Below, one piece after another: positions 17,832 to 34,315 of a stretch of DNA of 64,000 nucleotides. How positions within the stretch are numbered: the stretch's first letter is position 1; the number at the start of each line of letters is the position of its first letter. This stretch comes from Actinomadura sp. NAK00032 (GTDB taxonomy: Bacteria; Actinomycetota; Actinomycetes; Streptosporangiales; Streptosporangiaceae): the NCBI RefSeq assembly GCF_013364275.1, contig NZ_CP054932.1, forward strand, positions 5,022,001-5,086,000, given 5' to 3'. Made by a program: the position numbers and the translations under genes. The notes below the pieces were generated by a model. The model saw only the letters and a program-made list of their open reading frames with translations, did not search any database and was not told the DNA's origin.

Positions 17832-18611
17832 CTAGCGGTGCGTCGTCCAGGTGCGGGTGATCTCCTCGGCGGCGTCGACGACGAGGGTCCGGTAGCGGTC
17901 GATGGCCTCCGGGGTGAAGCGGTGCCGGGGCCCGCACACGCTGATGGAGCCGTGCACCTCCCCGTCCGGGCCGAACAGCGGCGCGGCGACCGAGCCCGCG
18001 TCGGCCTGGCGCTCGCCGAGGGAGACGGCGACGCCCTCCCGGACCGTCTCGGCGAGCTCGGCGCGCAGCCGGGCCTCGTCGGTGACGGTCCGGTGGGTCA
18101 TCGCCGCCAGCGGCCGGCCGAGGACCAGCTCCCGGCGCTCCGCGGGCAGGAACGCGAGGATCACCCGGCCCGAGGAGCCGGCGTGCAGCGGGAACCGGCG
18201 CCCGACCTCGACCGTCATCTTGACCTCGTGCGGGCTCTCGAACTGGTCGAGGTAGACCCGCTCGTCCCCGACGAGGCCCGACAGCGTGGTGGTCTCGCCG
18301 GTCGCGTCGCGCAGCCGCCGCAGCACGGGCGCGGCGGCGTTGCGGACGTTGAACCGGCGCAGCGCGCTCACCCCGAGCGCGACGGCGGCCGGGCCGAGCC
18401 GGTAGCCCGCCGTGCCCGCCTCCAGCATCTCGCGGGACACCAGCGACTGCAGGATGCGGTACACGACGGCCTTGGAGATGCCCAGCTCGCGGCTGATGGC
18501 GGTGACGCCGAGGTACTCCGGGCCGCCGGCGAACAGCAGCAGCACGTCGGCGACCCGCCCGGCGACCTCGGTTCCCCCCGACGGCGGCGCGGTGGCGGTC
18601 TGGTTGGTCAC
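17832..18611 (-). CDS. IclR-family regulator of the catabolic regulon
   Basis: This 259-residue protein has the winged helix (VAGRVADVLLLFAGGPEYLGV, ISRELGISKAVVYRILQSLV) and the IclR effector domain (VGRRFPLHAGSSGRVILAFL, then VREGVAVSLGERQADAGSVAAPLFG, GSISVCGP). IclR proteins sense pathway intermediates. It lies 16 bases downstream of the hydrolase gene as the last of the leftward ten-gene operon. The GTG start has no Shine-Dalgarno site, but TAGGAT lies six bases ahead of it, so it may also be transcribed on its own as a leaderless message. It is the natural candidate to bind the paired inverted repeats at 28301-28481. Confidence 0.87.
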   Translation of the reverse strand: MTNQTATAPPSGGTEVAGRVADVLLLFAGGPEYLGVTAISRELGISKAVVYRILQSLVSREMLEAGTAGYRLGPAAVALGVSALRRFNVRNAAAPVLRRLRDATGETTTLSGLVGDERVYLDQFESPHEVKMTVEVGRRFPLHAGSSGRVILAFLPAERRELVLGRPLAAMTHRTVTDEARLRAELAETVREGVAVSLGERQADAGSVAAPLFGPDGEVHGSISVCGPRHRFTPEAIDRYRTLVVDAAEEITRTWTTHR

Positions 18612-20097: not shown

Positions 20098-20107
20098 GGC
20101 GTACTCC

Positions 20108-21517
20108 TCAATTCTCGCGGGTGGTCGTGCGGCGGGCGGTCCGGTCGCGGGCGCTCTGGTCGCGCGCGACGGCGCCGGCCGCCAGGTAGGCGAGCCCGAA
20201 GGCGGGCAGCAGGCCGTTGCCGGGCAGGTAGCCGTCGGCGCCGTGGCCGGAGATCCCGGCGGCGGCGCCGCCCGCCGCGTACAGGCCGGGGATCGGCCGG
20301 TCGCCGGTGTCGACGACGGCGGCGTCCTCGTTGACGATCAGGCCGCCCTGGGTGTGGAAGAGGGCGGGGACGACCCGGACGGCGGCGTAGGGCGCGGCGA
20401 GGGGCCGCTCCCAGTGGGTGCGTCCGTGCTCGTCGGGGCGCTCGCCGCGGGCCGCGGCGGCACTGGCGGCCAGTTCCGCGGCGAGGGCGTCCGGCGGCAG
20501 GCCGGTGGCCTTGGCGAGGGCCTCGGCGTCGGCGGCCCGGACGAGGACGCCCGACTCGACGGTGTCGCGGTAGTCCTTGAACTCCTGGCAATGCTCGTGG
20601 ACCGTCTCGTCCAGGACGATCCAGCCGGTGGAGCCGGGCCGGGCGGCGAGTTCGGCGGCGTACTCGGAGTAGCCGCGGGTCTCGTCGCCGAACCGGCGGC
20701 CGCCGAGGTCCACCATGACCGCGCCGTGGATGATCGTGGCCCAGCCGACGAGGGTGCCGGCGCCGGCGGCGATGGCGCCGTGCCCCTGGTAGGCGTCGAG
20801 GTAGCCGGTGGCGGCGCCGAGGCCGCCGCCGATGCGCAGCGCGTCGCCGAGCGACTGGTCGCCGCCCTGGTAGTGGGCGCCGGCGATCTCGGGGACGTGC
20901 CGTTCGACGAGGCCGCGGTCGGCGCCGAAGCCGTTGGTGGCGAGCAGCACCGCGCCGGTGGGGATCTCCTCGGTCGTCCCGTCCGGGTACTGGACGACGG
21001 CGGCGCGCACCGCCCCGTCCGGGCCGGTCGCCACGTCGGCGAGCCGCGCCGGGACGAGCAGGTCGATGCCGGGGTGCGCGCGGACGCGCCGGGCGAGGTG
21101 GTCGATCACGCTCGACCCGTGCCGCCCCGGGACCGAGTGGCAGCGCGTGACGGAGTGCCCGGGGTAGTTGAAGTCGGTCACCAGGGACAGCGGCAGCTCC
21201 ACCGAGTCGGCGAGCCACTCCACGAGCGGGCCGCTGACCTCGGCGAGGGTGCGGGCGAGCCGGGCGTCGGCGCTGCCCTTGGTCTTGGCCATGATGTCGG
21301 CGACGAACTGGTCCGGGGAGTCGTAGACGCCCTCGGCCGCCTGCCAGCGCGAGCCCGCGCCGGGGAACATCGCGGTCGACATCGAGGTGTTGTTGCCGCG
21401 CCGGAAGTGCTCGCTGGCCTCCACGACGACCACGCTGAGGCCGAGTTCGGCGGCGCGCAGCGCGCCGGCGAGGCCGCCGCCGGCGCCCGCGACGACGAGG
21501 TCGGGTCCGTCGGTCAC
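20108..21517 (-). CDS. FAD-dependent dehydrogenase of the fumarate reductase/ketosteroid dehydrogenase type
   Basis: This 469-residue flavoprotein has the FAD loop DLVVAGAGGGLAGALRAAELG, then SVVVVEASEHFRRGNN, and the C-terminal FAD motif GLYAAGGAAAGISGHGADGYLPGNGL. The middle capping domain carries GGLIVNEDAAVVD, a substrate-side signature of the succinate dehydrogenase/fumarate reductase flavoprotein family. It could add or remove a double bond next to a carboxyl or keto group. No export signal or heme motif is visible, so it is soluble. It is translationally coupled by GTGA to the racemase homologue upstream. In the regulon it may prepare the ring compound or reduce an unsaturated intermediate (inference). 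Confidence 0.83.
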   Translation of the reverse strand: MTDGPDLVVAGAGGGLAGALRAAELGLSVVVVEASEHFRRGNNTSMSTAMFPGAGSRWQAAEGVYDSPDQFVADIMAKTKGSADARLARTLAEVSGPLVEWLADSVELPLSLVTDFNYPGHSVTRCHSVPGRHGSSVIDHLARRVRAHPGIDLLVPARLADVATGPDGAVRAAVVQYPDGTTEEIPTGAVLLATNGFGADRGLVERHVPEIAGAHYQGGDQSLGDALRIGGGLGAATGYLDAYQGHGAIAAGAGTLVGWATIIHGAVMVDLGGRRFGDETRGYSEYAAELAARPGSTGWIVLDETVHEHCQEFKDYRDTVESGVLVRAADAEALAKATGLPPDALAAELAASAAAARGERPDEHGRTHWERPLAAPYAAVRVVPALFHTQGGLIVNEDAAVVDTGDRPIPGLYAAGGAAAGISGHGADGYLPGNGLLPAFGLAYLAAGAVARDQSARDRTARRTTTREN

Positions 21518-22170
21518 GCTGCTCCCTCCGCGGTCATGAGCTTCAGGGCGAGGGCCGTCGGGTCGACGACGCGGGCCGCGAGCCGGTCCTGCCCGACGTC
21601 GACGGCCGAGCAGCCGTTGATCACGGCCGCGGCGCCGGCGGCGGCGAGCGCCGCCACGGCCTCGCCGAGGGCGGCGTTCCAGGCGGCGGCGTCGGCGACG
21701 GCGTCGAAGGGCAGCTCCAGTACCGCGATCCCGGCGACGTACTCGTCCAGGCCGTAGCCCTTGAGGCGGCGGCCCAGCTCCGCGCCGATCGCCTCGTTCC
21801 GCACCACAGCACCAAACCGAACATTCATCGCCGAAAGGTGCATACTACTCAGCTTCAGCAGGCCGATCGGCCGTACGCCCTGGTCAGGGCCGGTGCCCGG
21901 ACCGGACGGGCCGTCCGGGACGGCCGGGTCGAGCACGCAGTCGGGGAAGGCGAGGTCCCACCCGTCCCCGGCCCGCGCCAGCGCGGCGGCGACCTCCCGC
22001 TCGGAGGCGCGGATCGCCGCCTCGTCGTCCAGCGCGCCGGGCGCGGCCGGGCCGACGTCGCGCAGCTCGACGGTCAGGCCCGGCGGGGCCAGCCGGTCGT
22101 AGCGGGCCTGCCGCCGCCGGATCTCCTCCGGCGGCAGATGGATCGGCGTCACGGCCAGGGCGCGCGTCAC
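21514..22170 (-). CDS. Asp/Glu/hydantoin racemase-family protein (first copy)
   Basis: This 218-residue protein fits the aspartate/glutamate racemase superfamily in its hydantoin-racemase-like form. Two cysteines are at the expected sites: Cys78 in DLAFPDCVLDP and Cys187 in AAVINGCSAVD. The family includes hydantoin racemases, maleate cis-trans isomerase, allantoin racemase and arylmalonate decarboxylase, all acting next to a carboxyl or carbonyl through one or two cysteines. Next to a hydantoinase-like hydrolase, a hydantoin-type racemase or a maleate-type isomerase is plausible. The GTG start overlaps the upstream MmgE/PrpD stop and its stop overlaps the downstream gene. It shares little sequence with the second copy at 32776. 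Confidence 0.72.
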   Translation of the reverse strand: MTRALAVTPIHLPPEEIRRRQARYDRLAPPGLTVELRDVGPAAPGALDDEAAIRASEREVAAALARAGDGWDLAFPDCVLDPAVPDGPSGPGTGPDQGVRPIGLLKLSSMHLSAMNVRFGAVVRNEAIGAELGRRLKGYGLDEYVAGIAVLELPFDAVADAAAWNAALGEAVAALAAAGAAAVINGCSAVDVGQDRLAARVVDPTALALKLMTAEGAA

Positions 22171-23513
22171 TTCGGCTCCTTCGTCTCGTCGCCGGCGAGG
22201 CCGCGCAGGCGCTCCCCGGCATGGTCCAGGCCCGGCAGCTCGCGGGAGAGCGCCGCCGCCCGGTCGATCAGTTCCTCGCGTCCCGGCAGCCACCGGCGCA
22301 GCATGGCCAGGACGTCCCCCTCTCCCAGGGGCCGGTGGTCGGCGTCGCCGACCGGGTTCGGGACCTCGCGGGTCCGGCGCGTCCCGTCGTCCAGCTCGAC
22401 GGTGACTCGGGCGGCGCGCTCGTCCGGCAGCCGCGCGGTCAGGTCGCCCGCCTCGGCCAGCCGGACCCGCCGCGCCAGCGCCCGCAGGGCCGGGTCGGCG
22501 AGGTCGGCGCCGGGCGCGACCTCGCCGTGCAGCAGCGCGGCGGCGACGGCGAACGGCGTGGAGAACATCGCCGACAGCCGGTTGTCCCACTCCGGCGACG
22601 CCAGCCCGGCGCCGAGCGCGTGCGTCTCGACCAGCACGCCGCTGATCCGGGACGGGTCGAGCCCGCCGCGCAGGCCGAGGACGGCGTCGGCGGCGGGATG
22701 GGTGAACGAGCAGGACGCGTGCCGCTTGAAGTAGCCGCGCGTGATGTCCCAGCGCTCGCCGAGCCCGCCGGTCAGCTCGGCCGGGTCGAACTCGCCGAGC
22801 AGGGTGCCGAGCGACAGCGCGGCGGTACCGGTGTTGCGGGCGAGCCCGGCCGCCGCCATCCGCGCCGCGGCCAGGCCCGACATGTTGGACGCGCCCATCC
22901 AGGCGTCCCGCACCGGGTTCCCGTCCGTCGCCGAGGCGAAGTGCCCGGCGACCGGCAGGCCGGCGCCGGTGTCGATCGCGGCCGCGACGGCGTCCGGGCC
23001 GAGGCCCAGCAGCCGCGCGCAGCCTGCGGCGGCGCCCGCGACGCCCCAGCTTCCGTGCGGGTGCGCGCCCGGCCGCAGCCGGGCCGCCCGCCCGAACCGG
23101 GACGCCGTCTCGTAGGCGGCGAGCAGCGCCGCCGCCGTGTCCGGGCCGGAGGCGTCCCGCTCGGCCGCCAGCGCCAGCACGGCCGGGAAGCCGTGCGCCG
23201 CGGGATGCCCCTTGGCGTACTTGTTGCCCTCGTCCAGCTCCAGGCAGACGAGCGCCACGGCGTTCAGCCAGGCGGCGGCGTCGACCGAGGCGCACCGCCC
23301 CGCCCCGATCAGCGGCGCGGGCCCGCCGGGGGCGTCCCACGCCGCGCGCAGCGCGCGCGTCTCCGCCAGCCCGGCGCCGAGCGCCGTCACGCCGATCGCG
23401 TCGAGCAGGACCAGGGAGAGCCGGTCGAGCACCGGGCCCGGCACGTCCGCGACGTCCAGTCCCGCGACCCACTCCCCCAGCCGGGCCGTCGCGGCCCCCG
23501 TGTCCACGTCCAT
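22167..23513 (-). CDS. MmgE/PrpD-family protein (first copy)
   Basis: This 448-residue MmgE/PrpD protein has the family marks LVLLDAIGVTALGAG, WLNAVALVCLELDEGNKYAKGHPAAH (usually a HxxDxDDxH-type stretch), RPGAHPHGSWGVAGAAAG and YFKRHASCSFTHPAADAV. PrpD-type proteins hydrate, isomerise or decarboxylate small di- and tricarboxylates (2-methylcitrate dehydratase, cis-aconitate decarboxylase, iminodisuccinate epimerase). Here the metal-free acid/base residues may be His in GHPAAHG and Lys/His in FKRHASC. The ATG overlaps the LivF stop by one base (TGATG); a TTG one codon upstream is possible. It is coupled to the racemase homologue downstream. Confidence 0.82.
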   Translation of the reverse strand: MDVDTGAATARLGEWVAGLDVADVPGPVLDRLSLVLLDAIGVTALGAGLAETRALRAAWDAPGGPAPLIGAGRCASVDAAAWLNAVALVCLELDEGNKYAKGHPAAHGFPAVLALAAERDASGPDTAAALLAAYETASRFGRAARLRPGAHPHGSWGVAGAAAGCARLLGLGPDAVAAAIDTGAGLPVAGHFASATDGNPVRDAWMGASNMSGLAAARMAAAGLARNTGTAALSLGTLLGEFDPAELTGGLGERWDITRGYFKRHASCSFTHPAADAVLGLRGGLDPSRISGVLVETHALGAGLASPEWDNRLSAMFSTPFAVAAALLHGEVAPGADLADPALRALARRVRLAEAGDLTARLPDERAARVTVELDDGTRRTREVPNPVGDADHRPLGEGDVLAMLRRWLPGREELIDRAAALSRELPGLDHAGERLRGLAGDETKEPK

Positions 23514-24214
23514 CAAAGCCCCAGGTACGCCTTCCTGACCTCGGCCGACCCGGCCAGCTCGTCACCGGTCCCGTGCAGGACGGTCGAGCCGCTCTCCAGC
23601 ACGTAGGCGCGGTCGGCGATGCCGAGGGCCTGCTTGGCGTTCTGCTCCACCAGCAGCACCGCGACGCCGGTGTCGCGGATCCGCTTGACCGCGTCGAGCA
23701 TCGCCCACGTCAGCTTGGGCGACAGGCCGGTGGACGGCTCGTCCAGCATGAGCAGCTTCGGCCGGGCCATCAGCGCGCGGCCGATCGCGAGCATCTGCTG
23801 CTGCCCGCCGCTGAAGGTCTGCGCGACCTGCCCGCGGCGCTCGGCGAGGACGGGGAACAGCGCGAACACCTCGCGCATCGCCGCCTCGACCTCGCCGTGC
23901 GGGCGGGTCCAGGCGCCCATCCGCAGGTTCTCCTCGACGGTGAGGGTGCCGAACAGGGCGCGGTCCTCGGGGACGTGCACGAGCCCGTCGCGGACGAGCT
24001 TGTCGGGGCGGCGCCCGGCGGTGGACTCGCCCGCGAACGTGATCGTCCCGGACGTCGGCCGCAGCTGCCCGCACACCGCGCGCAGCGTCGTGGTCTTCCC
24101 CGCGCCGTTCGCGCCGACGAGCGCGACGATCTCGCCCTCGCCGAGCGTCAGGTCGATGTCGTGCAGGATCTGCATGCGCCCGTAGCCGGCGCAGAGCCGC
24201 TCAAGCTTCAGCAT
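23513..24214 (-). CDS. Branched-chain-type ABC importer ATPase (LivF-like)
   Basis: This 233-residue ABC ATPase has Walker A LVGANGAGKTTTL, signature TFSGGQQQMLAIGRALM, Walker B LLMLDEPSTGLSP and switch His region LLVEQNAKQAL. ATPases of this length with VPEDRALFGTLTVEENL are LivF. It pairs with LivG to drive import of amino acids, urea, carboxylates or amides. Its start lies inside the end of the LivG gene (14-base overlap), so the two are coupled. Placed in a degradation operon, it takes up the pathway substrate. Confidence 0.92.
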   Translation of the reverse strand: MLKLERLCAGYGRMQILHDIDLTLGEGEIVALVGANGAGKTTTLRAVCGQLRPTSGTITFAGESTAGRRPDKLVRDGLVHVPEDRALFGTLTVEENLRMGAWTRPHGEVEAAMREVFALFPVLAERRGQVAQTFSGGQQQMLAIGRALMARPKLLMLDEPSTGLSPKLTWAMLDAVKRIRDTGVAVLLVEQNAKQALGIADRAYVLESGSTVLHGTGDELAGSAEVRKAYLGL

Positions 24215-24935
24215 CGCCGGGCTCCTCTCCGAGGTAGGCCTCGATCACGCGGGGGTCGGAGGTGACCTCCTCGGCCGAGCCGGCCGCCAGCACCCGGCCC
24301 TGGTCCAGGACGAGGACCCGGTCCGACAGGCGCATCACGGCCGCCATGATGTGCTCGATGAACAGCAGCGTCGTGCCGTCCTCGGCGCGCAGCGCGGACA
24401 GCAGGTCCAGCACCGGCTCGCGCTCCGACGGGACAAGCCCGGCGAGGACCTCGTCCAGCAGCAGGACCTTCGGCCGCATCGCGAGCGCGCGGGCGAGTTC
24501 CAGCCGCTTCAGCCCGGCCGTCGGCAGCTCGGTGGCGTTGCGGTGCGCCCACTGGCCGAGGCCGACGCGCTCCACGACGTCCAGCGACCGCTTGCGCAGC
24601 CGGTGCGGCGACGCCCGCCGGTGCTGGGCGGCCAGGCTCACGTTCTCCAGCACGGTCATGCTCCCGAACGGGCGCATGAGCTGGAAGGTGCGGACCATGC
24701 CGGCGCGGGCGATGCGGTCCGGGGAGGAGCCGGTGACGTCCCGGTCGCCGAACACGACCTGCCCGGTGTCGGGGGCCAGGGCGCCGCAGATGACGTTGAA
24801 CAGCGTCGTCTTCCCGGCGCCGTTCGGGCCGATGATGCCGAGGATCTCCCCCTGCTCGACCTGGAACTCCACGTCCGACAGGGCGCGCAGGCCGCGGAAG
24901 TCCTTGCCCACTCCGGTCACGTTCAGGATGCTCAT
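24201..24935 (-). CDS. Branched-chain-type ABC importer ATPase (LivG-like)
   Basis: This 244-residue ATPase has Walker A IIGPNGAGKTTLFNVI and Walker B KVLLLDEVLAGLVPSE. The signature region reads LPTAGLKRLELARALAM where LSxGxxR is usual, as in many LivG proteins. DGTTLLFIEHIMAAVMRLSDRV is the typical H-loop ending. The ATG overlaps the LivM stop (ATGA). It works with LivF, the two permeases and the binding lipoprotein of the same operon. Confidence 0.92.
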   Translation of the reverse strand: MSILNVTGVGKDFRGLRALSDVEFQVEQGEILGIIGPNGAGKTTLFNVICGALAPDTGQVVFGDRDVTGSSPDRIARAGMVRTFQLMRPFGSMTVLENVSLAAQHRRASPHRLRKRSLDVVERVGLGQWAHRNATELPTAGLKRLELARALAMRPKVLLLDEVLAGLVPSEREPVLDLLSALRAEDGTTLLFIEHIMAAVMRLSDRVLVLDQGRVLAAGSAEEVTSDPRVIEAYLGEEPGDAEA

Positions 24936-26008
24936 CGGCGCCACCTCGCGGCGATCGTGCCGACGATGCCCTTGGGCAGCAGCCGGACGATGAGGATCAG
25001 CAGGACCGCGTAGACCGCGACGTCCAGGCCGCTGCGGCCCTGCAGGAAGTTCAGGAAGTCGGGCGGGGTGCGCAGCAGCGTCGCGGTGACGTCCGACAGC
25101 GCCCCGAGGATGACCGCGCCGACGATCGGGCCCCAGATGGTGCCGATGCCGCCGATGACCACGGTCGCGATCGCCTGGATCGACACCGACGACCCGAACG
25201 CCAGGTCGGGGTTCACGAACAGGTAGTACTGCGTGTAGAAGGCGCCGGCCACCGAGGTGATCGCGGCCGACAGCGCGACCGTGACCAGCTTGTAGCGCAG
25301 CACGGGCGTGCCGAGGGACGCCGCCGCCAGCTCGTCGTCGCGGATCGCGGTGACGTAGCGGCCGGTCCGCGAGTGCAGGAACACGATGCTGACCGCGGCG
25401 GCGATCCCGGCGAGGCCGAGCGCGATCCAGAAGTAGGCGGGCGAGTCCGCGGCGAACTGGATCTTCCAGAACGAGGAGCCCTGGATCAGCGGGACGGTGA
25501 ACCCGACCGCCTTGTTGGTGAAGTCGCTGGTCGTGACGATCAGCCGCAGCATCTCGGCGAACGCGAACGTCGCCAGCGCGAAGTAGGCGCCCTGCAGCTT
25601 GTAGCGGAACGCGAAGTAGCCGATGACGACGGCGACCGCGGCGGCGACCGCCATCCCGGCGAGCATCCCGATCCACGGCGACACGCCGTGCTCGACGAGC
25701 AGGTAGGCGCTGGTGTAGGCGCCGAGGCCGAAGAACGCGGCGTGCCCGAAGCTGAACATCCCGCCGAACCCGCTCATCACGTTCCAGCCGACGGCCATCA
25801 GCGCGAAGATCAGGATGCGGACGGCGACGGCGCCCTGCGCAGGCGGCAGCACCAGCGGCAGCGGGATCGCGACGAGCAGCAGCACCCCGAGCACGGCGAG
25901 CTGCCGGTGGTGCGGGCGCAGCGGCGGCGCCTTCGCCGGCCGGGCGGCGTCCCCGTCCGGGCGGCGGGTGAGGGTGATGCCCGTGTCCGTCATGCCCGTG
26001 TCCGTCAT
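24932..26008 (-). CDS. Branched-chain-type ABC importer permease (LivM-like)
   Basis: This 358-residue permease has about nine to ten membrane segments and the LivM pattern: MSGFGGMFSFGHAAFFGLGAY, GAYFALATFAFAEMLRLIVT, a cytoplasmic RYVTAIRDDELAAASLG coupling loop, and GGIGTIWGPIVGAVILGAL. The N-terminus carries a direct 15-base duplication, giving MTDTGMTDTG, so either ATG (26008 or 25993) could be used. It overlaps LivH by four bases. Confidence 0.92.
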   Translation of the reverse strand: MTDTGMTDTGITLTRRPDGDAARPAKAPPLRPHHRQLAVLGVLLLVAIPLPLVLPPAQGAVAVRILIFALMAVGWNVMSGFGGMFSFGHAAFFGLGAYTSAYLLVEHGVSPWIGMLAGMAVAAAVAVVIGYFAFRYKLQGAYFALATFAFAEMLRLIVTTSDFTNKAVGFTVPLIQGSSFWKIQFAADSPAYFWIALGLAGIAAAVSIVFLHSRTGRYVTAIRDDELAAASLGTPVLRYKLVTVALSAAITSVAGAFYTQYYLFVNPDLAFGSSVSIQAIATVVIGGIGTIWGPIVGAVILGALSDVTATLLRTPPDFLNFLQGRSGLDVAVYAVLLILIVRLLPKGIVGTIAARWRR

Positions 26009-26009
26009 G
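25980..26009. repeat. Tandem 15-base duplication at the LivM start
   Basis: CCCGTGTCCGTCATG occurs twice in a row (25980-25994, 25995-26009). On the coding strand it duplicates the start codon and the next four codons, so two in-frame ATGs result. It looks like a recent slippage event with little effect on the protein. Confidence 0.8.
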
Positions 26010-27027
26010 ACCGCCTCCCGAAGAGCCCCTGCGGGCGGAGGAACAGCACGATCACGAAGACGGCGAACACGCCGAGCAGCGAGCTCTGCCCGTCCATGTA
26101 GATCGTGGTGAGCTGCTCGACCAGCCCGATCAGCAGCCCGCCGACGAGCGCGCCGGCGACGTTGCCCATGCCGCCGAGCACCACGACGACGAACGCGGTG
26201 ATGTTGAACTGCTCGCCGAGCGTCGGCGTGACCGTGACCAGCGGCGCGGCGAGCACCGCCGCGGCACCGGCGCAGGCCGTGCCGATCGCGAACGTCAGGG
26301 TGTGGACGCGCCGGACGTTCACGCCGACCAGCTCGGCGCCCTGCCCGTTGGCGGCGACCGCGCGGATCGCCGTGCCGAACCGGGTGCGGCGCAGCAGCCA
26401 GAACAGCACCGCGCCGATCAGGATCGCGCCGAGGAAGGCGTACAGCCGGGCGCCCGACACGACCGCGCCGAACAGCGAGAACTGGAAGTCGCCGGGCAGC
26501 GCCACGGTCTTCGGCTCGGCGCCGAAGAACATCAGCAGGCCGTTCTCCAGCAGCAGCGACAGGCCGAGCGTGATGAGGAGCTGGTTCTCCAGCGACGCGC
26601 CGCCCGTCCCGCTGAGCAGGCCGCGGTGCACGGCGGCGCCGAGCAGGAACAGCGCGGGCACCGCGACGAGGAGCGTCAGGTACGGGTGGACGCCGGTGCC
26701 CTGCACGACGCCGAACGCGATGAACATCGCGATGGCCAGCAGCGCGCCGTGCGCGAAGTTGACGATGTCCAGCACGCCGAAGATCAGCGTGAGGCCCATC
26801 GCGATGAGCCCGTAGAGCCCGCCCATCAGCAGGCCGGTCACCACCGACTGCCAGACGACCAGGCCGCTGCCGGACTTGATCAGGGCGACCGCGATCGCGA
26901 CCGCCACCAGGCCGCCGGTGACGGCGGCGCGCTTGAGGACGGCGCCCGTCCCGTCGCCGCCCAGCAGCGGGCGCCGCCGGGCGGCGGGGGCGGGTGGGGA
27001 CTGCGCCTTGGTTCCGATGTTGCTCAT
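26005..27027 (-). CDS. Branched-chain-type ABC importer permease (LivH-like)
   Basis: This 340-residue permease has the LivH pattern: GLLMGGLYGLIAMGLTLIFGVLDIVNFAHG early on, ITLGLSLLLENGLLMFFG, the coupling loop RTRFGTAIRAVAANGQGAELVGVN, and GGMGNVAGALVGGLLIGLVEQ. An N-terminal cytoplasmic stretch of about 30 residues is longer than usual. The ATG at 27027 is chosen because it overlaps the binding-protein stop by ATGA; a GTG three codons upstream is less likely. Confidence 0.92.
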   Translation of the reverse strand: MSNIGTKAQSPPAPAARRRPLLGGDGTGAVLKRAAVTGGLVAVAIAVALIKSGSGLVVWQSVVTGLLMGGLYGLIAMGLTLIFGVLDIVNFAHGALLAIAMFIAFGVVQGTGVHPYLTLLVAVPALFLLGAAVHRGLLSGTGGASLENQLLITLGLSLLLENGLLMFFGAEPKTVALPGDFQFSLFGAVVSGARLYAFLGAILIGAVLFWLLRRTRFGTAIRAVAANGQGAELVGVNVRRVHTLTFAIGTACAGAAAVLAAPLVTVTPTLGEQFNITAFVVVVLGGMGNVAGALVGGLLIGLVEQLTTIYMDGQSSLLGVFAVFVIVLFLRPQGLFGRRS

Positions 27028-28274
27028 GACCGCCACGTCACCGAGTAGTTGGGCTGGGATTCGGCCTTCTCCGCGGGATAGACCTGCTTGACCTGGCCGC
27101 CCTGCACCTGCATGAGGACGGGCAGCGCGGTCTTGTTGTCGCCGTTGGGGGCGAAGGAGATCGGGCCGGTGCCGACCGTGAGGGGCTCGACGCTGGAGGA
27201 GGCGATCGCGTCGCGGACCTTCTCGGCGTCGGTGGAGCCGGCGCGCTCCACCGCCTGCGCGATCACCTGGACCGCGTCGTAGGCGAGGACGGCGCCGGTG
27301 CGCATGGGGGCGCCGTAGCGGCGCTGGTACTCCTGCCGCAGCTTCGCGGTCTGCGGGTTCTTGGCGTCGAAGTGGTAGTTGGTGCTGAAGATCCGCTCGG
27401 CGACGGCTCCGGCGTCGGAGACGAACTTCGGCTGGTCGTAGGCGCCGTTGGACACGCCCCAGACCGCGTTCAGGTCCGGTTTCACCGCGGCGATGGCCTT
27501 GGCGGCGAGCAGGCTGTCGCGGTAGTAGCCGGCGACGGCGAGGACGTCCGCGCCGGACGCCTTGACCTGCGTGACCTGCGCGGTGAGGTCGGACACCGTG
27601 AGCGCGTCGTAGCTGATGTTCGGGCCGACCTCGATGCCGAGCTTCTTCGCCGCGGCGGTGAACGCCTCGGCGGCGCCGCTGCCGAAGTCGGTCTGCTCGT
27701 GCAGGAAGGCGACCTTCCGGACCGGCTTGCCCGCCTGCTCGGAGACCTCCTTGAGATAGCGGGCGGCGGCGCCGGCGATGGCGGCGCTGCCGGGCTGCAC
27801 CCGGAAGGAGTATTTGTAGCCGTTGGCGAAGATCGCGTCGGAGGCGGTGACGTCCATCACGAACGGCACCCGGTTGCGCTCGGCGACGACGGCCGCGTTC
27901 GTGCTGACGGCGCTCTGGTAGGTGCCGACGAAGCCGACCGCGCCCTCGGAGATCAGCCGCTGGGCCTCGCTCTGCCCGACCTCCGCCTTGCCCTGGGTGT
28001 CGCCGGTGGCGAGCTCGACCTTGCGGCCGCCGAGGGACTTGATGCCGCCGGCGGCGTTGATCGCCTCGACGGCGAGCTGCGCGCCGCGGCGCATCTGCTG
28101 GCCGTCGACGGCGTTGGCGCCGCTGACCGGATGCAGCGCGCCGATCTTGACCGGGCCCCGGTCGCGCCCGGCGGCCACTCCGGCCGCGCCGGACGGCGCC
28201 GAGCCACCGCAGCCGGCCGCGGCGGCCAGGACCGCGCAGGCGCCGAGCCCGGCGGCGAGCTTACGAGCCCACAT
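27024..28274 (-). CDS. ABC importer substrate-binding lipoprotein (LivK-like)
   Basis: This 416-residue binding protein has a lipobox at LAAAAGC (Cys22) and the two-lobed Leu/Ile/Val-binding-protein fold: VKIGALHPVSGANAVDGQQM, AAVEAINAAGGI-like LAVEAINAAGG, VGFVGTYQSAVSTNAAVVAE, and VAFLHEQTDFGSGAAEAFTAA. Proteins of this family bind amino acids, amides, urea or aromatic acids, so ligand prediction is not safe. It is the first gene of the ten-gene leftward operon, with AGAGGTG before its ATG, and the operator-like repeat at 28305-28321 lies in its leader. Confidence 0.9.
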   Translation of the reverse strand: MWARKLAAGLGACAVLAAAAGCGGSAPSGAAGVAAGRDRGPVKIGALHPVSGANAVDGQQMRRGAQLAVEAINAAGGIKSLGGRKVELATGDTQGKAEVGQSEAQRLISEGAVGFVGTYQSAVSTNAAVVAERNRVPFVMDVTASDAIFANGYKYSFRVQPGSAAIAGAAARYLKEVSEQAGKPVRKVAFLHEQTDFGSGAAEAFTAAAKKLGIEVGPNISYDALTVSDLTAQVTQVKASGADVLAVAGYYRDSLLAAKAIAAVKPDLNAVWGVSNGAYDQPKFVSDAGAVAERIFSTNYHFDAKNPQTAKLRQEYQRRYGAPMRTGAVLAYDAVQVIAQAVERAGSTDAEKVRDAIASSSVEPLTVGTGPISFAPNGDNKTALPVLMQVQGGQVKQVYPAEKAESQPNYSVTWRS

Positions 28275-28300
28275 TCACCTCTCCCGCCCTCTCTGCCGGT

Positions 28301-28321
28301 GATCGTTCCGCTAGGAGGAAC
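28301..28321. promoter_or_regulatory. Operator-like site in the leader of the leftward operon
   Basis: GTTCC and GGAAC (28305-28309, 28317-28321) form a short inverted repeat. GATCGTTCCGCT (28301-28312) is repeated exactly, in inverted orientation, at 28470-28481 in front of the rightward operon. The position downstream of the predicted leftward start of transcription suits repression by blocking. It is a candidate for the IclR protein of this regulon. Confidence 0.5.
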
Positions 28322-28340
28322 ACCAGGTCGCTGATGCGTC

Positions 28341-28370
28341 ATCGTGGCACCCGTCACGGCATCCGGTCAA
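28341..28370 (-). promoter_or_regulatory. Possible promoter of the leftward importer/catabolic operon
   Basis: On the minus strand TTGACC (28365-28370) is followed after 18 bases by CACGAT (28341-28346), giving a start near 28334 and a leader of about 60 bases. The -35 is good; the -10 is moderate. Confidence 0.4.
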
Positions 28371-28459
28371 TATCTGGGTGAAACTTGACGTAACTCGCCG
28401 TGCAGTGCCAACTTGTGAAGTCCGGGGCGCCCGCGCGAACCGGCCGAGCCATCCATATT

Positions 28460-28481
28460 CGTTTCTCTAAGCGGAACGATC
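28460..28481. promoter_or_regulatory. Operator-like site ahead of the rightward catabolic operon
   Basis: AGCGGAACGATC (28470-28481) is the exact inverted copy of the site at 28301-28312. Together with CGTTTC (28460-28465) it also makes a local imperfect palindrome. It lies 22 bases before the CoA transferase start, suggesting that both operons answer to the same regulator. Confidence 0.5.
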
Positions 28482-28503
28482 GTCCGTGAAGGCGGTACCG
28501 TCC

Positions 28504-29691
28504 ATGACCGACGCGCTGTCCGGAGTCCGGGTCCTCGACACGGCCACGCTGTTCGCCGGCCCGCTCGCCGCGACACTGCTCGGCGACTTCGGGGCCGAGG
28601 TCATCAAGATCGAGCACCCGAAGGGCGACCCGGTGCGCAGCCACGGCGCCCAGCGCGACGGCGTCGGGCTCTGGTGGAAGATGCTCGGCCGCAACAAGAA
28701 GGCGATGACGCTCTACCTCGGCTCACCCGAGGGCCAGGAGCTGTTCCGCCGGATGGTCGCCGACGCCGACGTCGTGATCGAGAACTTCCGTCCCGGGACG
28801 CTGGAGCGCTGGGGCCTAGGGTACGACGAGTTGAAGCAGGTCAATCCAGGTCTGGTGCTCGCCCGGGTCACCGGGTTCGGGCAGACCGGCCCGTACTCCA
28901 GGCGCCCCGGGTTCGGCACGCTCGCCGAGGCGATGAGCGGGTTCGCCGCGATCACCGGCGAGCCGGACGGCCCGCCGACCCTGCCGCCGTTCGGCCTCGC
29001 CGACGGGATCGCCGCCCTCACCACCGCGTTCGCGGTCATGACGGCGCTGCGGGCGCGGGAGGCGACCGGCGAGGGCCAGGTCGTCGACCTCGCCATCATC
29101 GAGCCGATCCTGACCCTGCTCGGCCCGCAGATCATCACCTACGACCAGCTCGGCGAGCTGCAGGCCCGCACCGGCAACCGGTCGCACAACAACGCGCCGC
29201 GCAACACCTACCGGACCCGCGACGGCAGCTGGGTCGCGATCTCCACCAGCGCCCAGTCGATCGCCGAGCGCGTGATGCGGCTGGTCGGCCGGCCCGAGCT
29301 GATCGACGAGCCGTGGTTCGCGACCGGCGCCGAGCGCGCCAAGCACGCCGACGTGCTGGACGAGGCCGTCGGGTCGTGGATCGCCGAGCGCGACCGCGAC
29401 GAGGTCGTCAAGGCGTTCGAGGACGCCCAGGCCGCCGTCGCCCCCATCTACAACGCCGCCGACGTCATGGCCGACCCGCAGTTCCAGGCGCTCGGCACCA
29501 TCGCGACCGTCCCCGACGACGAGCTCGGCCCGGTGAAGATGCAGAACGTCCTGTTCCGGCTGTCGCAGACGCCGGGCCGGATCGAGTCGGCCGGGCCGCC
29601 GCTCGGCGCGCACACCGCCGAGATCCTCGCCCGCTACGGGGTGGACGAGGCCGCGCTGGCCGAACTGCGCGGCAAGGGCGTGGTCAAGTGA
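28504..29691 (+). CDS. CaiB/BaiF-type (class III) CoA transferase
   Basis: This 395-residue protein is a family III CoA transferase: GVRVLDTATLFAGPLAATLLGDFGAEVIKIEHP at the N-terminus, then LGRNKKAMTLYLGSPEGQEL, RPGTLERWGLGYDEL and EGQVVDLAIIEP, where the Asp is the usual catalytic aspartate. These enzymes move CoA from a donor such as succinyl-CoA to a carboxylate without free intermediates. The ATG at 28504 is chosen because a GAAGGCGG sits upstream. As the first gene of the rightward operon, and next to a CitE-like lyase, it probably activates the carboxylic intermediate for cleavage. Confidence 0.9.
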   Translation: MTDALSGVRVLDTATLFAGPLAATLLGDFGAEVIKIEHPKGDPVRSHGAQRDGVGLWWKMLGRNKKAMTLYLGSPEGQELFRRMVADADVVIENFRPGTLERWGLGYDELKQVNPGLVLARVTGFGQTGPYSRRPGFGTLAEAMSGFAAITGEPDGPPTLPPFGLADGIAALTTAFAVMTALRAREATGEGQVVDLAIIEPILTLLGPQIITYDQLGELQARTGNRSHNNAPRNTYRTRDGSWVAISTSAQSIAERVMRLVGRPELIDEPWFATGAERAKHADVLDEAVGSWIAERDRDEVVKAFEDAQAAVAPIYNAADVMADPQFQALGTIATVPDDELGPVKMQNVLFRLSQTPGRIESAGPPLGAHTAEILARYGVDEAALAELRGKGVVK

Positions 29692-30539
29692 CGCCGCGGT
29701 CCTGGCTGTACGTGCCGGGCGACCGGCCGGACCGGATCGGCAAGGCGCTCGCGTCCGGCGCCGACGCGGTGATCCTCGACCTGGAGGACGCCGTCGCGCC
29801 GGCCGCCAAGCGGGACGCGCGCCGCAACGTGCTCGACGCCCTCGACGCCGGGAACACCGCCTACGTGCGGATCAACGCGCCCGGCACCCCCGACGGCGCC
29901 GACGACATCGCCCTGCTGGCGACCGCGCCCGCCGCGCTCGCCGGGGTCCGCGTGCCCAAGTGCGAGGACCCGGGCGAGCTGCGCCGCGTCGCCGACGCGC
30001 TCGGCGTGCCGGTGTTCCCGATCCTGGAGTCGGCGCTCGGCGTGGAGAACGCCCTGCTGCTCGCGACCGCGCACCCGCTGGTCGCCGGGATCTCGCTCGG
30101 CGAGGCCGATCTCGCCGCCGACCTGCGCGCGGGCGGCGAAGCCCTCGCCTGGCCGCGCTCGCGGGTCGTGGTCGCCGCCCGCGCGGCCGGACTGCCGTCC
30201 CCGGCGCAGAGCGTGTGGACCGCCGTCCGCGACCTGGACGGCCTGCGCGCCGACACGCTCGCGGGCCGCCGGGCCGGGTTCTTCGGCCGGTCGGTGATCC
30301 ACCCCGCGCAGCTCCCCGTCGTCCACGAGGCGTGCGTCCCCGACCCCGACGACGTCGCGTGGGCCCGCGACCTCATGAGCCAGCTCACCGAACGCGCCGC
30401 GGCAGGCGGCGGCGCCGCATGGATCGACTCCGCCGGCCGGTTCGTGGACAAGGCCGTCGTCGAGCGCGCCGCCTGGCTGCTCGACGCCGCCGCGTCCGCC
30501 GAGTCCGCCGCCCGGCCCGTCAAGGAAGGCCAGAAATGA
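29688..30539 (+). CDS. CitE-like acyl-CoA lyase
   Basis: This 283-residue protein belongs to the HpcH/HpaI aldolase/CitE family: RSWLYVPGDRPDRIGKAL, DAVILDLEDAVAP (Asp/Glu near 31-34), TAYVRINAPGT (substrate Arg), PILESALGVENA (Glu ligand) and SLGEADLAADL (Asp ligand), the Mg-binding pair. Relatives cleave citramalyl-CoA, malyl-CoA, methylmalyl-CoA or citryl-CoA to pyruvate or glyoxylate plus an acyl-CoA. Single-gene CitE-like lyases next to a CoA transferase act on CoA thioesters rather than on a citrate-lyase acyl carrier. The GTG overlaps the CoA transferase stop. Confidence 0.88.
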   Translation: MTPRSWLYVPGDRPDRIGKALASGADAVILDLEDAVAPAAKRDARRNVLDALDAGNTAYVRINAPGTPDGADDIALLATAPAALAGVRVPKCEDPGELRRVADALGVPVFPILESALGVENALLLATAHPLVAGISLGEADLAADLRAGGEALAWPRSRVVVAARAAGLPSPAQSVWTAVRDLDGLRADTLAGRRAGFFGRSVIHPAQLPVVHEACVPDPDDVAWARDLMSQLTERAAAGGGAAWIDSAGRFVDKAVVERAAWLLDAAASAESAARPVKEGQK

Positions 30540-31354
30540 CCACGCAGGACCCGCTGCTCGCGGCCGTCGCCGGGGGCGTCCGGCTGATCGAGCTTGGCCA
30601 GCCGTTCTTCACCGGCATGCCCTGCTCCCCCAACCACCCCGGGTTCCGGATGACGCTGATCCGGCGGCACGGCGACATGGAGCGCCCGGACGGCGGCTCC
30701 GCCGCCAACGAGATCATCGTGACCGGCGGCCACGTCGGCACGCACATCGACGCGCTCTCCCATGTCAGCCACAACGGCGAGCTGCACGGCGGGATCTCGG
30801 CCGCCGACGCCCAGCGCGGCGGCGCCTTCACCAGCCACGGGGCGGAGAACCTGCCCGGCCTGCTGCGCCGCGGCGTCCTGCTCGACGTCGCCGCCGTCCA
30901 CGGCGTCCCGACGCTGCCGCCCGGCTACGGCGTCACCGTCGAGGACCTGGAGCTGGCCGCCGAGCGCGCCGGCGCCGAGCCCGGCGAGGGCGACGTGGCG
31001 CTGATCCGCACCGGCTGGGCCCGCAACTTCGGCGACACCACCGCCTACCTCGGCAAGGAGACCGGCGTCCCCGGCGCGACCCCGGCCGCCGCGCGGTGGC
31101 TGGCGGAGCGGCGGATCGCCGCGACCGGCGCCGACACGACCGCCTACGAGCAGATTCCCGAGGGCGCCGGGCACGCGGTCCTGCCGGTCCACCGGATCCT
31201 GCTGGTCGAGTCGGGGATCTTCATCCTGGAGCACCTGAACCTGGAGGCGCTCGCCGAGGCCGGGCTGCACGAGTTCGTGTTCGTGCTCGCCCCGCTGCGG
31301 ATCAGGGGCGGCACCGGCTCCCCCGTCCGCCCGCTCGCGGCGGTGTCGGCATGA
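30536..31354 (+). CDS. Cyclase/kynurenine-formamidase-type metal hydrolase
   Basis: This 272-residue protein has the metal motif GGHVGTHIDALSH (His66, His70, Asp72, His76) of the cyclase family (PF04199-type), which includes kynurenine formamidase, isatin hydrolase and other amide- or lactam-opening enzymes. DVALIRTGWARNF and TGADTTAYEQIP are the later family stretches. The likely reaction here is opening of an amide, imide or lactone ring or deformylation. ATGA overlap with CitE and ATG overlap with the second MmgE/PrpD gene make it fully coupled. It is the second ring-opening-type enzyme of the regulon. Confidence 0.85.
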   Translation: MTTQDPLLAAVAGGVRLIELGQPFFTGMPCSPNHPGFRMTLIRRHGDMERPDGGSAANEIIVTGGHVGTHIDALSHVSHNGELHGGISAADAQRGGAFTSHGAENLPGLLRRGVLLDVAAVHGVPTLPPGYGVTVEDLELAAERAGAEPGEGDVALIRTGWARNFGDTTAYLGKETGVPGATPAAARWLAERRIAATGADTTAYEQIPEGAGHAVLPVHRILLVESGIFILEHLNLEALAEAGLHEFVFVLAPLRIRGGTGSPVRPLAAVSA

Positions 31355-32754
31355 CCGCCGGGACCCCCGTCCAGCGGCTCGCCGGGCTCGCCGCCGCCAC
31401 CGCCGCCGGCGGGCTGCCGCCGGAACTGCGCGACGACGCCGCCCGCCGCGTCCTGGACGTCCTCGGCAACAGCCTCGCCGCCACCGCGGAACCGCCCGCG
31501 CGGGCCGTCGGGGAACTCGTCGGCGAATGGGGCGGCGCGGGCCGCGCCACCGCGATCGGCACCGGGACGCGGCTGCCCGAGCCGAGCGCCGCGCTGCTGA
31601 ACGGCACGCTCGCCCACTCCCTGGACTTCGACGACACGCACCTGCCGTCCGTCCTGCACCCGTCGGCGTCGGTGGTGCCCACCGCGCTCGCCGTGGCCGA
31701 GGCCCGGGGCGCGTCCGGCGCCGCGCTGCTGGACGCGGTCGGCGTCGGCGTCGAGATCACCGTGCGGCTCGGCATGGCCGGGTACGACCGCGACCTCGGC
31801 AACTCGGTGTTCTTCGAACGCGGGCAGCACGCCACCGCGATCTGCGGGGCGGTCGGCGCCGCCGCGTCCGCGGCGATGCTGTCCGGGCTGGACGCCGCCG
31901 GCATCGCGCACGCGATGGGCATCGCCGCGAGCATGGGCTCGGGGATCCTGGAGGCCAACCGCACCGGCGGCACCGTCAAGCGGATCCACTGCGGCTGGGC
32001 CGCGCACGCCGCCGTCACCGCCGCCGGCCTGGCCCGCACGGGCATCACCGGCCCGCCGACCGTCCTCGAAGGGCGGTTCGGGTTCCTCCAGGCGTTCTGC
32101 GGCGACCAGGTCGACCTGGACGCCCTCACCTCCGGCCTGGGCGAGCACTGGGAGCTCCCCGGGATCTTCTTCAAGCCCTACCCGTGCAACCACTTCACCC
32201 ACGCGGGCATCGACGCCGCGCTGCGGCTGCGCGAGCGGGGCCTGGACCCGGCGGCGGTCGAGTCGATCGAACTGGGCGCGCCGACGCCGGTGCTGCGCAC
32301 GATCGGCGAGCCGCACGAGGACAAGATCCGCCCGAAGTCGGGGTACCACGCGGCCTTCTCCGGCCCCTACACCGTCGCGGCGGCGCTGCTCGGCGGCGGC
32401 GGGCTCGGCGTCTTCCACGAGGACTTCACCGACGAGGCCGCCGCCGACCCGGACCGGCTCGCGCTGGCCGCGAAGGTCCGCTGCGTCCCCGACGCCCGCT
32501 GCGACGAGATCTTCCCGCACCAGTTCCCGGCCGTCCTGCGGGTCCGCACCCGCGCCGGGGACCTGCTGGAGGAGCGGGTGGACGTCAACCGGGGCGGGCC
32601 CGGCAACCCGCTGTCGGCGGAGGAGCTGGCGACGAAGTTCCGGCTGAACGCCTCCCGCCGCGTCACCGGCGCGCAGGCCGAGCAGATCACCTCCCTCACC
32701 TACGGCCTGGCCGGGATCGAGGACCTGCGCGACCTCACGTCACTGCTGGAGTAG
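31351..32754 (+). CDS. MmgE/PrpD-family protein (second copy)
   Basis: This 467-residue PrpD-type protein keeps the fuller family signature: NGTLAHSLDFDDTHLPSVLHPSASVVPTALA (the LDFDDTH motif with likely acid/base His and Asp), GVEITVRLGMA, KRIHCGWAAHAAVTAAGLA and FFKPYPCNHFTHAGIDAA. The first copy at 22167 has LDEGNKYAKGH in place of LDFDDTH, so the two have different chemistry or substrates. Relatives are methylcitrate dehydratase, cis-aconitate decarboxylase and iminodisuccinate epimerase. It could hydrate an unsaturated dicarboxylate ahead of lyase cleavage (inference). The ATG overlaps the cyclase stop. Confidence 0.86.
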   Translation: MTAGTPVQRLAGLAAATAAGGLPPELRDDAARRVLDVLGNSLAATAEPPARAVGELVGEWGGAGRATAIGTGTRLPEPSAALLNGTLAHSLDFDDTHLPSVLHPSASVVPTALAVAEARGASGAALLDAVGVGVEITVRLGMAGYDRDLGNSVFFERGQHATAICGAVGAAASAAMLSGLDAAGIAHAMGIAASMGSGILEANRTGGTVKRIHCGWAAHAAVTAAGLARTGITGPPTVLEGRFGFLQAFCGDQVDLDALTSGLGEHWELPGIFFKPYPCNHFTHAGIDAALRLRERGLDPAAVESIELGAPTPVLRTIGEPHEDKIRPKSGYHAAFSGPYTVAAALLGGGGLGVFHEDFTDEAAADPDRLALAAKVRCVPDARCDEIFPHQFPAVLRVRTRAGDLLEERVDVNRGGPGNPLSAEELATKFRLNASRRVTGAQAEQITSLTYGLAGIEDLRDLTSLLE

Positions 32755-32775
32755 CCGCGCCGTAGGGTCGGGGCC

Positions 32776-33507
32776 ATGAGGCATCTCGGCATCCTGGCCC
32801 ACAGCGCGGAGGGCGCCGCGCTGTGCTTCCGGACCTTCTGCCACGAAGGGTTCCGCGAGCTCGGCCCCGACGACCACCCCGACGTGACGCTCGACCTGAT
32901 CGCGCTGGCCCGCAGCATGCCCGCCTGGGACGCCGGCGACCACGGCGCGGTCAGGGAGGTGCTGGCCGAGAGCGCCCGCCGCCTCGCGGCGGCGGGCGCC
33001 GACTTCTTCGTCTGCCCCGACAACACCGCCCACATGGCGCTGGAGCTCCCCGGCGGCGACCTGGCCCTGCCCGGCCTGCACATCGCGCGGGTCGTCGCGG
33101 ACCGGGCCGCCGCCGACGGCCGCGCCCGCGTCGGCGTGCTCGGCACCCGCTACACGATGGACGGCCCCGTCTACCCGCGCGAGCTGGCCGCGCGCGGCAT
33201 CGCCGCCGAGGTCCCGGAACCGGCCGACCGGGAGACCGTCCACCGGATCATCTTCGACGAGCTGGTCAACGGGGTGATCACCGAGGAGTCGCGGCGCGAG
33301 TACGCGCGGATCATCGGCCGGCTGGCCGAGCGCGGCTGCGACGCGGTCGCGCTCGTGTGCACCGAGATCCCGCTGCTGGTCACCCCGGACGTCTCGCCGC
33401 TGCCCACGCTCGACTCCACCCGCCTGCTGGCCCGCGCCGCCTTCGAGACGGCGGTCGGCCGCCGCCCCCTGCCCACCTGGCGCGGCGGAGGCTTCGACGG
33501 AGGCTGA
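32776..33507 (+). CDS. Asp/Glu racemase-family protein (second copy)
   Basis: This 243-residue protein is a clear aspartate/glutamate racemase family member: Cys80 in DFFVCPDNTAH and Cys195 in DAVALVCTEIPLL, the paired catalytic cysteines, with GVLGTRYTMDGPVY as the inter-domain strand. It differs from the first copy at 21514, which has its cysteines in PDC and NGC contexts. TAGGGT lies seven bases before the ATG with no Shine-Dalgarno site, so this gene may have its own leaderless promoter besides read-through from the operon. It probably isomerises an amino or unsaturated acid in the pathway. Confidence 0.85.
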   Translation: MRHLGILAHSAEGAALCFRTFCHEGFRELGPDDHPDVTLDLIALARSMPAWDAGDHGAVREVLAESARRLAAAGADFFVCPDNTAHMALELPGGDLALPGLHIARVVADRAAADGRARVGVLGTRYTMDGPVYPRELAARGIAAEVPEPADRETVHRIIFDELVNGVITEESRREYARIIGRLAERGCDAVALVCTEIPLLVTPDVSPLPTLDSTRLLARAAFETAVGRRPLPTWRGGGFDGG

Positions 33508-33547
33508 AACGGGGCAGACCTAGGGTGGGTGCGGAAAAGGGGGCCAG

Positions 33548-34315
33548 ATGGACTTCAGGAAGATGCACCACGGCGACCGTCCGCTGGTGCTGCCGAACGC
33601 GTGGGACTTCGCGAGCGGCGCCGCGCTGGTCGAGGCGGGCTTCCCGGCGGTCGGGACGACGAGCCTCGGCGTCGCGGCGGCCGCCGGGAAGCCCGACGCC
33701 GCCGGGGACACCCGCGCCGAGACGCTGGCCCTCGCCCGCGCCCTGTCGCGGCTGCCCGTGCCGGTGACCGTCGACATCGAGGGCGGGTTCTCCGGCCGGG
33801 TCGCCGACGTGGCCGAGCTGGTCACCGAGCTGGCCTCGTTCGGGATCGCCGGGATCAACCTGGAGGACGGGCGCCCCGACGGGACGCTCGCGCCTCTCGA
33901 CCACCAGACGACGGTGATCGCCGCCGTGAAGCGGGCCGCGCCGCAGGTGTTCCTCAACGCCCGCACCGACACGTTCTGGCTCGGCGACCCCGACCGCGAC
34001 GAGACCCTGCGGCGGGCGGGCGCGTACGCGGCGGCGGGCGCGGACGGGATCTTCGTCCCCGGGATCGTGGACGACGCCGACATCACCGCCGTGCTGGAGA
34101 CGGCGGAGCTGCCGCTCAACGTCCTGTACCTGCCGGGCAAGACCGAGTACGAGCGACTCGCGCGGCTGGGCGTGCACCGGGTCAGCACCGGGTCGCTGCT
34201 GTTCCGGAAGGCGCTCCACGCCGCCGTGACCGCGGCCCTCGGCGTCACCGGCGCCGGCGGGGACGGCCACCCGCCGTCGTACGGGGACGTGCAGCGCCTC
34301 GTCAGCGGGCGGTGA
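33548..34315 (+). CDS. Isocitrate lyase/PEP mutase superfamily enzyme
   Basis: This 255-residue protein has the ICL/PEPM barrel pattern: LVLPNAWDFASGAALVEAGFPAVGTTSLG, VPVTVDIEGGFSG (Asp ligand), GINLEDGRPDG (Glu), NARTDTFWLG and GADGIFVPGI. The short class that includes methylisocitrate lyase, dimethylmalate lyase and oxaloacetate hydrolase fits; the KKCGH loop of isocitrate lyases is missing. It could split a hydroxy-dicarboxylate into pyruvate or oxaloacetate plus an acid. It ends the rightward operon 40 bases after the racemase gene, with its own TAGGGT -10 at 33521 and a ribosome-binding GGGGG. It is convergent with the oxidase gene. Confidence 0.82.
   Translation: MDFRKMHHGDRPLVLPNAWDFASGAALVEAGFPAVGTTSLGVAAAAGKPDAAGDTRAETLALARALSRLPVPVTVDIEGGFSGRVADVAELVTELASFGIAGINLEDGRPDGTLAPLDHQTTVIAAVKRAAPQVFLNARTDTFWLGDPDRDETLRRAGAYAAAGADGIFVPGIVDDADITAVLETAELPLNVLYLPGKTEYERLARLGVHRVSTGSLLFRKALHAAVTAALGVTGAGGDGHPPSYGDVQRLVSGR

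Follow-up and report, generated by a model that had tools for sequence, protein, structure and literature searches.

What do the inverted repeats between two divergent catabolic operons do, and which protein, if any, reads them? The locus lies near the middle of a 64-kb stretch of the Actinomadura sp. NAK00032 chromosome (hereafter, the window). The earlier note, made from the letters of this DNA, had placed a 12-base sequence and its exact reverse complement 157 bases apart in the divergent promoter region, and had proposed them as targets of the IclR-family regulator encoded nearby. The placement is correct: GATCGTTCCGCT lies at 28301-28312 on the plus strand and its exact reverse complement at 28470-28481, with 157 bases between them, and these are the only two exact copies of the 12-mer in the 64-kb window. 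A bare inverted 12-mer pair is nevertheless unremarkable, because such pairs are common in this DNA; we counted 41 exact inverted 12-mer pairs no more than 200 bp apart in the window, against 2-20 in ten dinucleotide shuffles. When extended, the repeat has 21-nt arms that are 86% complementary, and each arm contains one 17-bp pseudo-palindrome of the form GTTYC-N7-GRAAC. We named these candidate operators O1 and O2 (see table); they lie 156 bp apart, start to start.

The palindrome is a much rarer object than the inverted pair. O1 and O2 are the only GTTYCN7GRAAC sites in the window, and 52 of 60 shuffles contained none. The whole 9.43-Mb genome has three exact GTTYCNCYNRGNGRAAC sites, two of which are O1 and O2. 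Allowing up to one mismatch to GTTYCNCYNRGNGRAAC gave 19 genome sites versus 7 for the reversed pattern, so the weaker matches are partly due to chance. Both palindromes are kept in all 17 close relatives examined. The exact 12-mer is found in only three of the 17 (twice in L036 and once each in L038 and L040), and on this ground we ruled it out as the functional unit. Neither the GATC flanks nor the inverted orientation is conserved, and in L040 both sites point in the same direction. Hence, the conserved unit is the 17-bp palindrome, one per operon, and the inverted arrangement is incidental: the positions put forward as targets stand, whereas the 12-base unit and its inversion do not.

The genes on either side are listed in the table together with the elements of the intergenic region.

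Table. Features of the divergent cluster and its intergenic region (window positions).
Feature	Position	Strand	Basis or remark
IclR-family regulator (HTH_IclR + IclR_C), last gene of importer operon	17832..18611	-	domain matches; 16 bases from the amidohydrolase gene
MmgE/PrpD protein, racemase-like small protein, flavoprotein (FAD_binding_2), allantoinase/hydantoinase-like amidohydrolase	18628..23516	-	profile matches and ORFs
livH, livM, livG, livF, branched-chain-amino-acid-type ABC importer	23513..27036	-	ORFs; named by eye from translations; livG start chosen by hand
Substrate-binding protein (Peripla_BP_6), first gene of importer operon	27024..28274	-	domain match
Candidate operator O1, GTTCCGCTAGGAGGAAC	28305..28321	.	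upstream of importer operon (minus strand); conserved in relatives; matrix score 25.8, O1 being among the sites that built the matrix
Inferred weak -10 (CACGAT, TGC before it), importer promoter; start ~28334 inferred	28341..28346	-	largely conserved block; position inferred
Inferred -35 (TTGACC), importer promoter	28365..28370	-	GTCAA invariant in 16 aligned gaps; recurrent in operator pairs
Inferred -35 (TTGACG), enzyme promoter	28385..28390	+	ACTTGAC invariant in 16 aligned gaps; recurrent in operator pairs
Inferred weak -10 (CAACTT, TGC before it), enzyme promoter; start ~28421 inferred	28409..28414	+	largely conserved block; position inferred
Candidate operator O2, GTTTCTCTAAGCGGAAC	28461..28477	.	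upstream of enzyme operon (plus strand); conserved in relatives; matrix score 29.1, O2 being among the sites that built the matrix
Enzyme operon: CoA-transferase family III, CitE-like lyase, cyclase-family hydrolase, second MmgE/PrpD-like protein, Asp/Glu racemase, isocitrate-lyase/PEP-mutase-like protein	28504..34315	+	profile matches and ORFs

The minus-strand run comprises ten genes whose neighbours overlap or are separated by at most 16 bases, and the ten are likely to share one transcript. Since this tight run ends in iclR, iclR itself would be placed under O1. The regulator passes the domain test for the IclR family, with 142 bits against PF01614 (cut-off 24) and 42.6 bits against PF09339 (cut-off 22). 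Its best NCBIfam match is the BhcR equivalog NF045644, at 149.3 bits and thus below the cut-off of 350, and it scores 119.1 bits against the PcaR/PcaU/PobR subfamily model TIGR02431, below the cut-off of 284.75. Besides the four ABC importer proteins, two cluster proteins were named by eye: the racemase-like small protein, which had no Pfam match at 1e-5 and whose start was chosen by hand, and the second MmgE/PrpD-like protein of the enzyme operon, which had no NCBIfam match. In a search of 27900-28700 for structured RNA, no Rfam family reached its gathering score. A gene for an FAD-dependent oxidoreductase (34339-35772, minus strand) converges on the enzyme operon; its product resembles aminophosphonate oxidoreductases, below the model cut-off, and the gene is kept beside the enzyme operon in four relatives (L037, L038, L043, and L045).

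We then asked how far the palindromes extend through the family of the window, where the cluster amidohydrolase occurs in 74 of 298 genomes. Sixty of the 76 places outside the window's genome were fetched, a choice made before sites were sought there. Orthologous clusters, to which the earlier note had looked for retention of the repeats, have mostly lost the 12-mer and have kept the 17-bp palindromes, albeit not universally: 24 of the 60 loci carry an exact pair in the divergent gap, with only one extra site elsewhere in these 24 (in L049), six have one site, L061 and L095 each have two outside the gap, and 28 have no exact site. The distribution is tied to the regulator. Every family locus with an IclR protein at least 50% identical to that of the window has the pair (20/20), as do four loci with no IclR in view (L068, L083, L090, and L091), whereas the 12 loci with an IclR 41-46% identical are without a pair between the divergent operons of the cluster. 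In L061, a pair 163 bp apart precedes a livG homologue and then iclR, and scattered sites occur in L059, L060, L093, and L095. Amycolatopsis pretoriensis and Prauserella salsuginis retain the pair, at 155 and 156 bp, respectively. Palindromes were also enumerated in 18 divergent regions, all chosen from loci in which the pair had already been found: GTTYC-N7-GRAAC had at least two copies in 16, compared with one of the 18 for the best unrelated palindromic pattern. The palindrome kept before each operon in 24 family loci supports the predicted co-regulation of importer and enzymes.

The sites also follow iclR through rearrangements of gene order. Where iclR is the first gene of the plus operon (L054, L055, L057, L078, and L086), the sites are with iclR, and in L218, where iclR stands apart, a further palindrome lies 70 bp before it. 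Part of the L051-L082 set represents a second amidohydrolase-cluster lineage, in which the enzyme genes run in one direction, the IclR is 41-45% identical where in view, and the palindrome is mostly missing; the regulator of this lineage may read another site.

A pattern-only search for pairs across the class gave hits in 3 of 394 genomes, G540 included, too few for statistics; the pair in G426 was judged to be a tandem-repeat artefact. A second family was selected because G540 (locus L238) had surfaced in this search. It has the amidohydrolase in 40 of 301 genomes, and the 40 loci (788 kb) were scanned with a symmetric matrix built from 54 sites, of which the window and its family contributed 50. 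At a score of at least 15, there were 64 sites in the 40 loci versus 1 in reversed sequences, and for 61 of the 64 a cluster gene began no more than 350 bp downstream; such upstream zones make up 15% of the DNA. A site scoring at least 12 was found in the 350 bp before each of the 37 second-family IclR genes, whose products are 47-75% identical to the window's. Leaving out L238, the locus that led to this family, the scan yields 62 sites, 1 control site, 59 upstream sites, and a site in 37 of 39 loci. Many of these loci have a single good site only.

A search with the CoA-transferase reached more distant clusters. Named loci with the cyclase and PrpD genes had a site in 13 of 19 cases versus 5 of 56 for loci without these genes (Fisher p 1.1e-6), in a comparison that took in the 75 of 80 loci at least 8 kb long and in which three of the 13 positives overlap the matrix set. 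The six named clusters without a site are L117 (which begins at iclR), L161, L162, L163, L171, and L178. Nothing scoring at least 15 was found in L161 and L162 (Micromonospora; IclR 51-52% identical) or in L163 (IclR 45% identical), and L171 and L178 have no IclR in view. Hence, the rule that an IclR at least 50% identical goes with the sites holds in the window's family and fails in some more distant clusters. Several loci of this search had other arrangements. In L115 and L118, a second palindrome pair, with spacings of 108 and 112 bp, lies beyond the cluster, some 4.3 kb past the CoA-transferase start, which suggests a further operon under the same regulator. L160, a Nocardioides metagenome cluster, has two pairs, one before the enzymes (133 bp) and one between iclR and the importer (143 bp), the second lying 6.6 kb downstream of the CoA-transferase start. 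In part of the L119-L157 set, CoA-transferase homologues 62-75% identical adjoin a CitE homologue, the rest of the cluster is absent, and the palindromes are mostly absent (L148 has one); these loci apparently belong to another pathway.

Are O1 and O2 read by the regulator of the cluster itself? The genome of the window has 22 IclR_C matches. In a scan of about 3.5 kb around each gene, a span too short to reach distant operators such as the candidate ones of the cluster's iclR, sites scoring at least 15 came up for two of the 21 other IclR paralogues. Of all the paralogues, these two, at 5.248 and 8.078 Mb, resemble the regulator of the cluster most closely. Their recognition helices read SKAVVHR and SKPAVHR, compared with SKAVVYR in the window's protein; a third paralogue, with the helix SKAAVHR, showed no site scoring at least 15 in the 3.5 kb or so around it. 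Judging from these helices and sites, two IclR paralogues of the genome probably read similar palindromes. One locus of the genome (L258, 5241500-5261400) has an IclR gene 49.6% identical to the window's next to genes for a Liv-type importer; palindromes of this type occur there at local positions 6227, 7647, and 8285, and cross-talk of this IclR with the window's regulon is possible. Local positions 8448-8464 of L111 hold the third exact palindrome of the genome. This site is close to where a family-5 solute-binding protein gene begins, in the company of ABC permease genes; it is also downstream of two other genes, one for a glyoxalase-fold protein and one for an IclR (45.9% identical).

Although near-identical helices with similar palindromes nearby make it conceivable that real sites at O1 and O2 are bound mainly by another IclR paralogue, we regard this as very improbable, given that the pair lies in the regulator's own cluster wherever a family locus has an IclR of at least 50% identity and that every second-family IclR gene has its upstream site. 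That the repeat arose by chance in GC-rich DNA is harder still to entertain: the abundance of inverted 12-mer pairs in the window would allow it, but conservation across families, the outcome in the second family, and the rarity of the palindrome in the genome leave it next to no probability. The comparative evidence, together with a published motif class described below, thus supports the proposal that these are IclR targets, and the palindromes are very probably binding sites of the cluster's own IclR-type regulator.

The DNA between O1 and O2 gives an indication of how such binding might act. Two blocks, GTCAA and ACTTGAC, do not vary across an alignment of 16 gaps, and 18 bases outward of them the alignment has blocks that are less strongly conserved. 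We read the two invariant blocks as putative back-to-back -35 elements. Of 50 operator pairs, 35 contain GTCAA, and each of these has one copy 56-65 bp from the O1 start; back-to-back -35-like elements are present in 25 of the 50, compared with 0.14 expected from shuffles; the 50 pairs are related sequences, many from close relatives. A consensus scan of 28200-28560 found no sigma-70-like promoter and no terminator, so the case for the promoter elements is one of conservation. O1 and O2 probably both fall in leaders, which, if the elements are promoters, is the position expected of sites for a repressor. Their distances to the start codons are those usual for IclR sites (PMC8222616).

We propose that the cluster's IclR-family regulator has its operators at O1 and O2, and that two outward-facing promoters, their -35 elements back to back, lie between them. 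The leader containing O1 would then belong to the importer-amidohydrolase-iclR operon, and the leader containing O2 to the CoA-transferase/lyase/hydrolase operon. Bound either as one dimer per palindrome or as a dimer-of-dimers spanning the two, the regulator would repress both operons and iclR with them, and a pathway metabolite would release it, so that importer, enzymes, and regulator come on together. IclR proteins usually respond to a pathway metabolite, and the release step is drawn from this behaviour of the family. We give this reading as a whole, with O1 and O2 as leader operators, repression, and metabolite release, a probability of about 0.78. The sequences show the palindromes, their conservation, their association with this IclR lineage, and the conserved promoter-like elements; that the protein binds there, that it represses instead of activating, and that a ligand frees it are steps that we infer. 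It is unlikely that the regulator instead activates the operons, in the manner of BhcR, PobR, or PcaU. BhcR is the best NCBIfam match, if below cut-off, and is reported to activate its cluster (PMC11323563), but the conserved -35-like elements inside the O1-O2 interval put both sites downstream of the inferred promoters, which is unexpected for an activator. A different elaboration leaves repression in place and concerns the two sites as a unit: a dimer-of-dimers would hold O1 and O2 at once and loop out the 156 bp that carry both promoters, so that the operons could not be switched separately. In 25 pairs, the window's included, the spacing is 151-157 bp in 20, 132 bp in three, and 120 bp in two, and the prevalence of 151-157 bp despite variable flanking genes and outer distances would fit such a loop, as would the reports that IclR proteins act as tetramers (mentioned for the family, TtgV, or IclR; PMC8222616, PMC11323563); in passages of PMC13273656, a paper that came up for IclR and DNA looping, the word tetramer does not occur. 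Common ancestry and a fixed promoter anatomy also give constant spacing, however, and over all pairs the spacing ranges from 74 to 163 bp, while many second-family loci make do with one good site.

The spacings also cluster by phase, with a best period of 11.65 bp that 0 of 10,000 jitter trials reached on equal grids, for 26 spacings that were collapsed by hand (near-equal values of one lineage merged, some pairs having a weak second site) and are not independent. With 17 unique spacings, 83 of 10,000 jittered sets reached the observed clustering. The 26- and 17-value sets leave out the 122- and 163-bp pairs, which belong to another regulator lineage; adding these two values weakens the result to 167 of 10,000. 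The best period differs from that of free B-DNA: for the unique spacings, p is 0.07 at 11.0 bp, and at 10.5 bp the phase is poor. Given the hand-collapsed, non-independent values, we set helical phasing aside as proof of looping, and we consider the loop at this locus a tentative idea with the odds against it. More doubtful by a small step is the general form, in which a two-operator module would be widespread among actinobacteria: a dimer-of-dimers of the IclR protein would clamp a fixed-phase loop around back-to-back promoters and switch importer, enzymes, and regulator as one, the spacing stepping by about one turn between lineages (~74, 84, 108-112, 120, 132, 143, and 155 bp).

With O1 and O2 read as leader operators, a catabolic cluster found in several actinobacterial families would become a defined regulon, with two operons and a regulator sharing one type of operator. 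Should a pathway metabolite be what the regulator responds to, the O1-O2 promoter could serve directly as a reporter in the search for the substrate. Whether IclR proteins loop DNA could, in turn, be examined with the series of operator spacings that occurs in nature. Searches of a literature collection for the operator core with IclR, and separately for the enzyme set of the cluster, found no report of this regulon, although an earlier prediction may exist; the main text of PMC8222616 does not mention MmgE, PrpD, or three COG numbers for such enzymes, and its supplements may list the regulator group.

Both the regulator and the motif belong to known kinds, and the type of switch is ordinary. 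TtgV and E. coli IclR use operators and serve pathways that differ from those of the window's regulator. Both are of the IclR family and are listed as its sequence relatives (structures 2xrn/2xro and 2o99); tetramers are mentioned in the literature for the family, TtgV, or IclR, and the window's protein is known here from sequence alone. BhcR of Paracoccus denitrificans (PMC11323563) shares with our protein the family and a divergent promoter region, which BhcR binds. It differs in the score, which is far below the equivalog cut-off, in its pathway, and in that BhcR activates, with a predicted BhcR site upstream of the -35 region. The closest precedent for the sites is the IclR group 1 motif of Suvorova and Gelfand 2021 (PMC8222616), subgroup GTT-11-AAC, GTTYCRYW3RYGRAAC. 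The subgroup is likewise a 17-bp palindrome with GTTYC and GRAAC arms, is common in Actinobacteria, and has sites close upstream of start codons, and Liv-type importer genes are among the IclR-family targets. O1 and O2 match the GTTYC/GRAAC arms exactly, with GTT and AAC 11 bases apart, and their inner bases (GCTAGGA in O1 and TCTAAGC in O2) fit RYW3RY in part; relatives vary there. The same study stresses tandem sites with centres 18-22 nt apart. The long-range arrangement of candidate operators described here differs: 74-163 nt separate the members of a pair, and in the window two inferred promoters lie between the sole GTTYCN7GRAAC sites.
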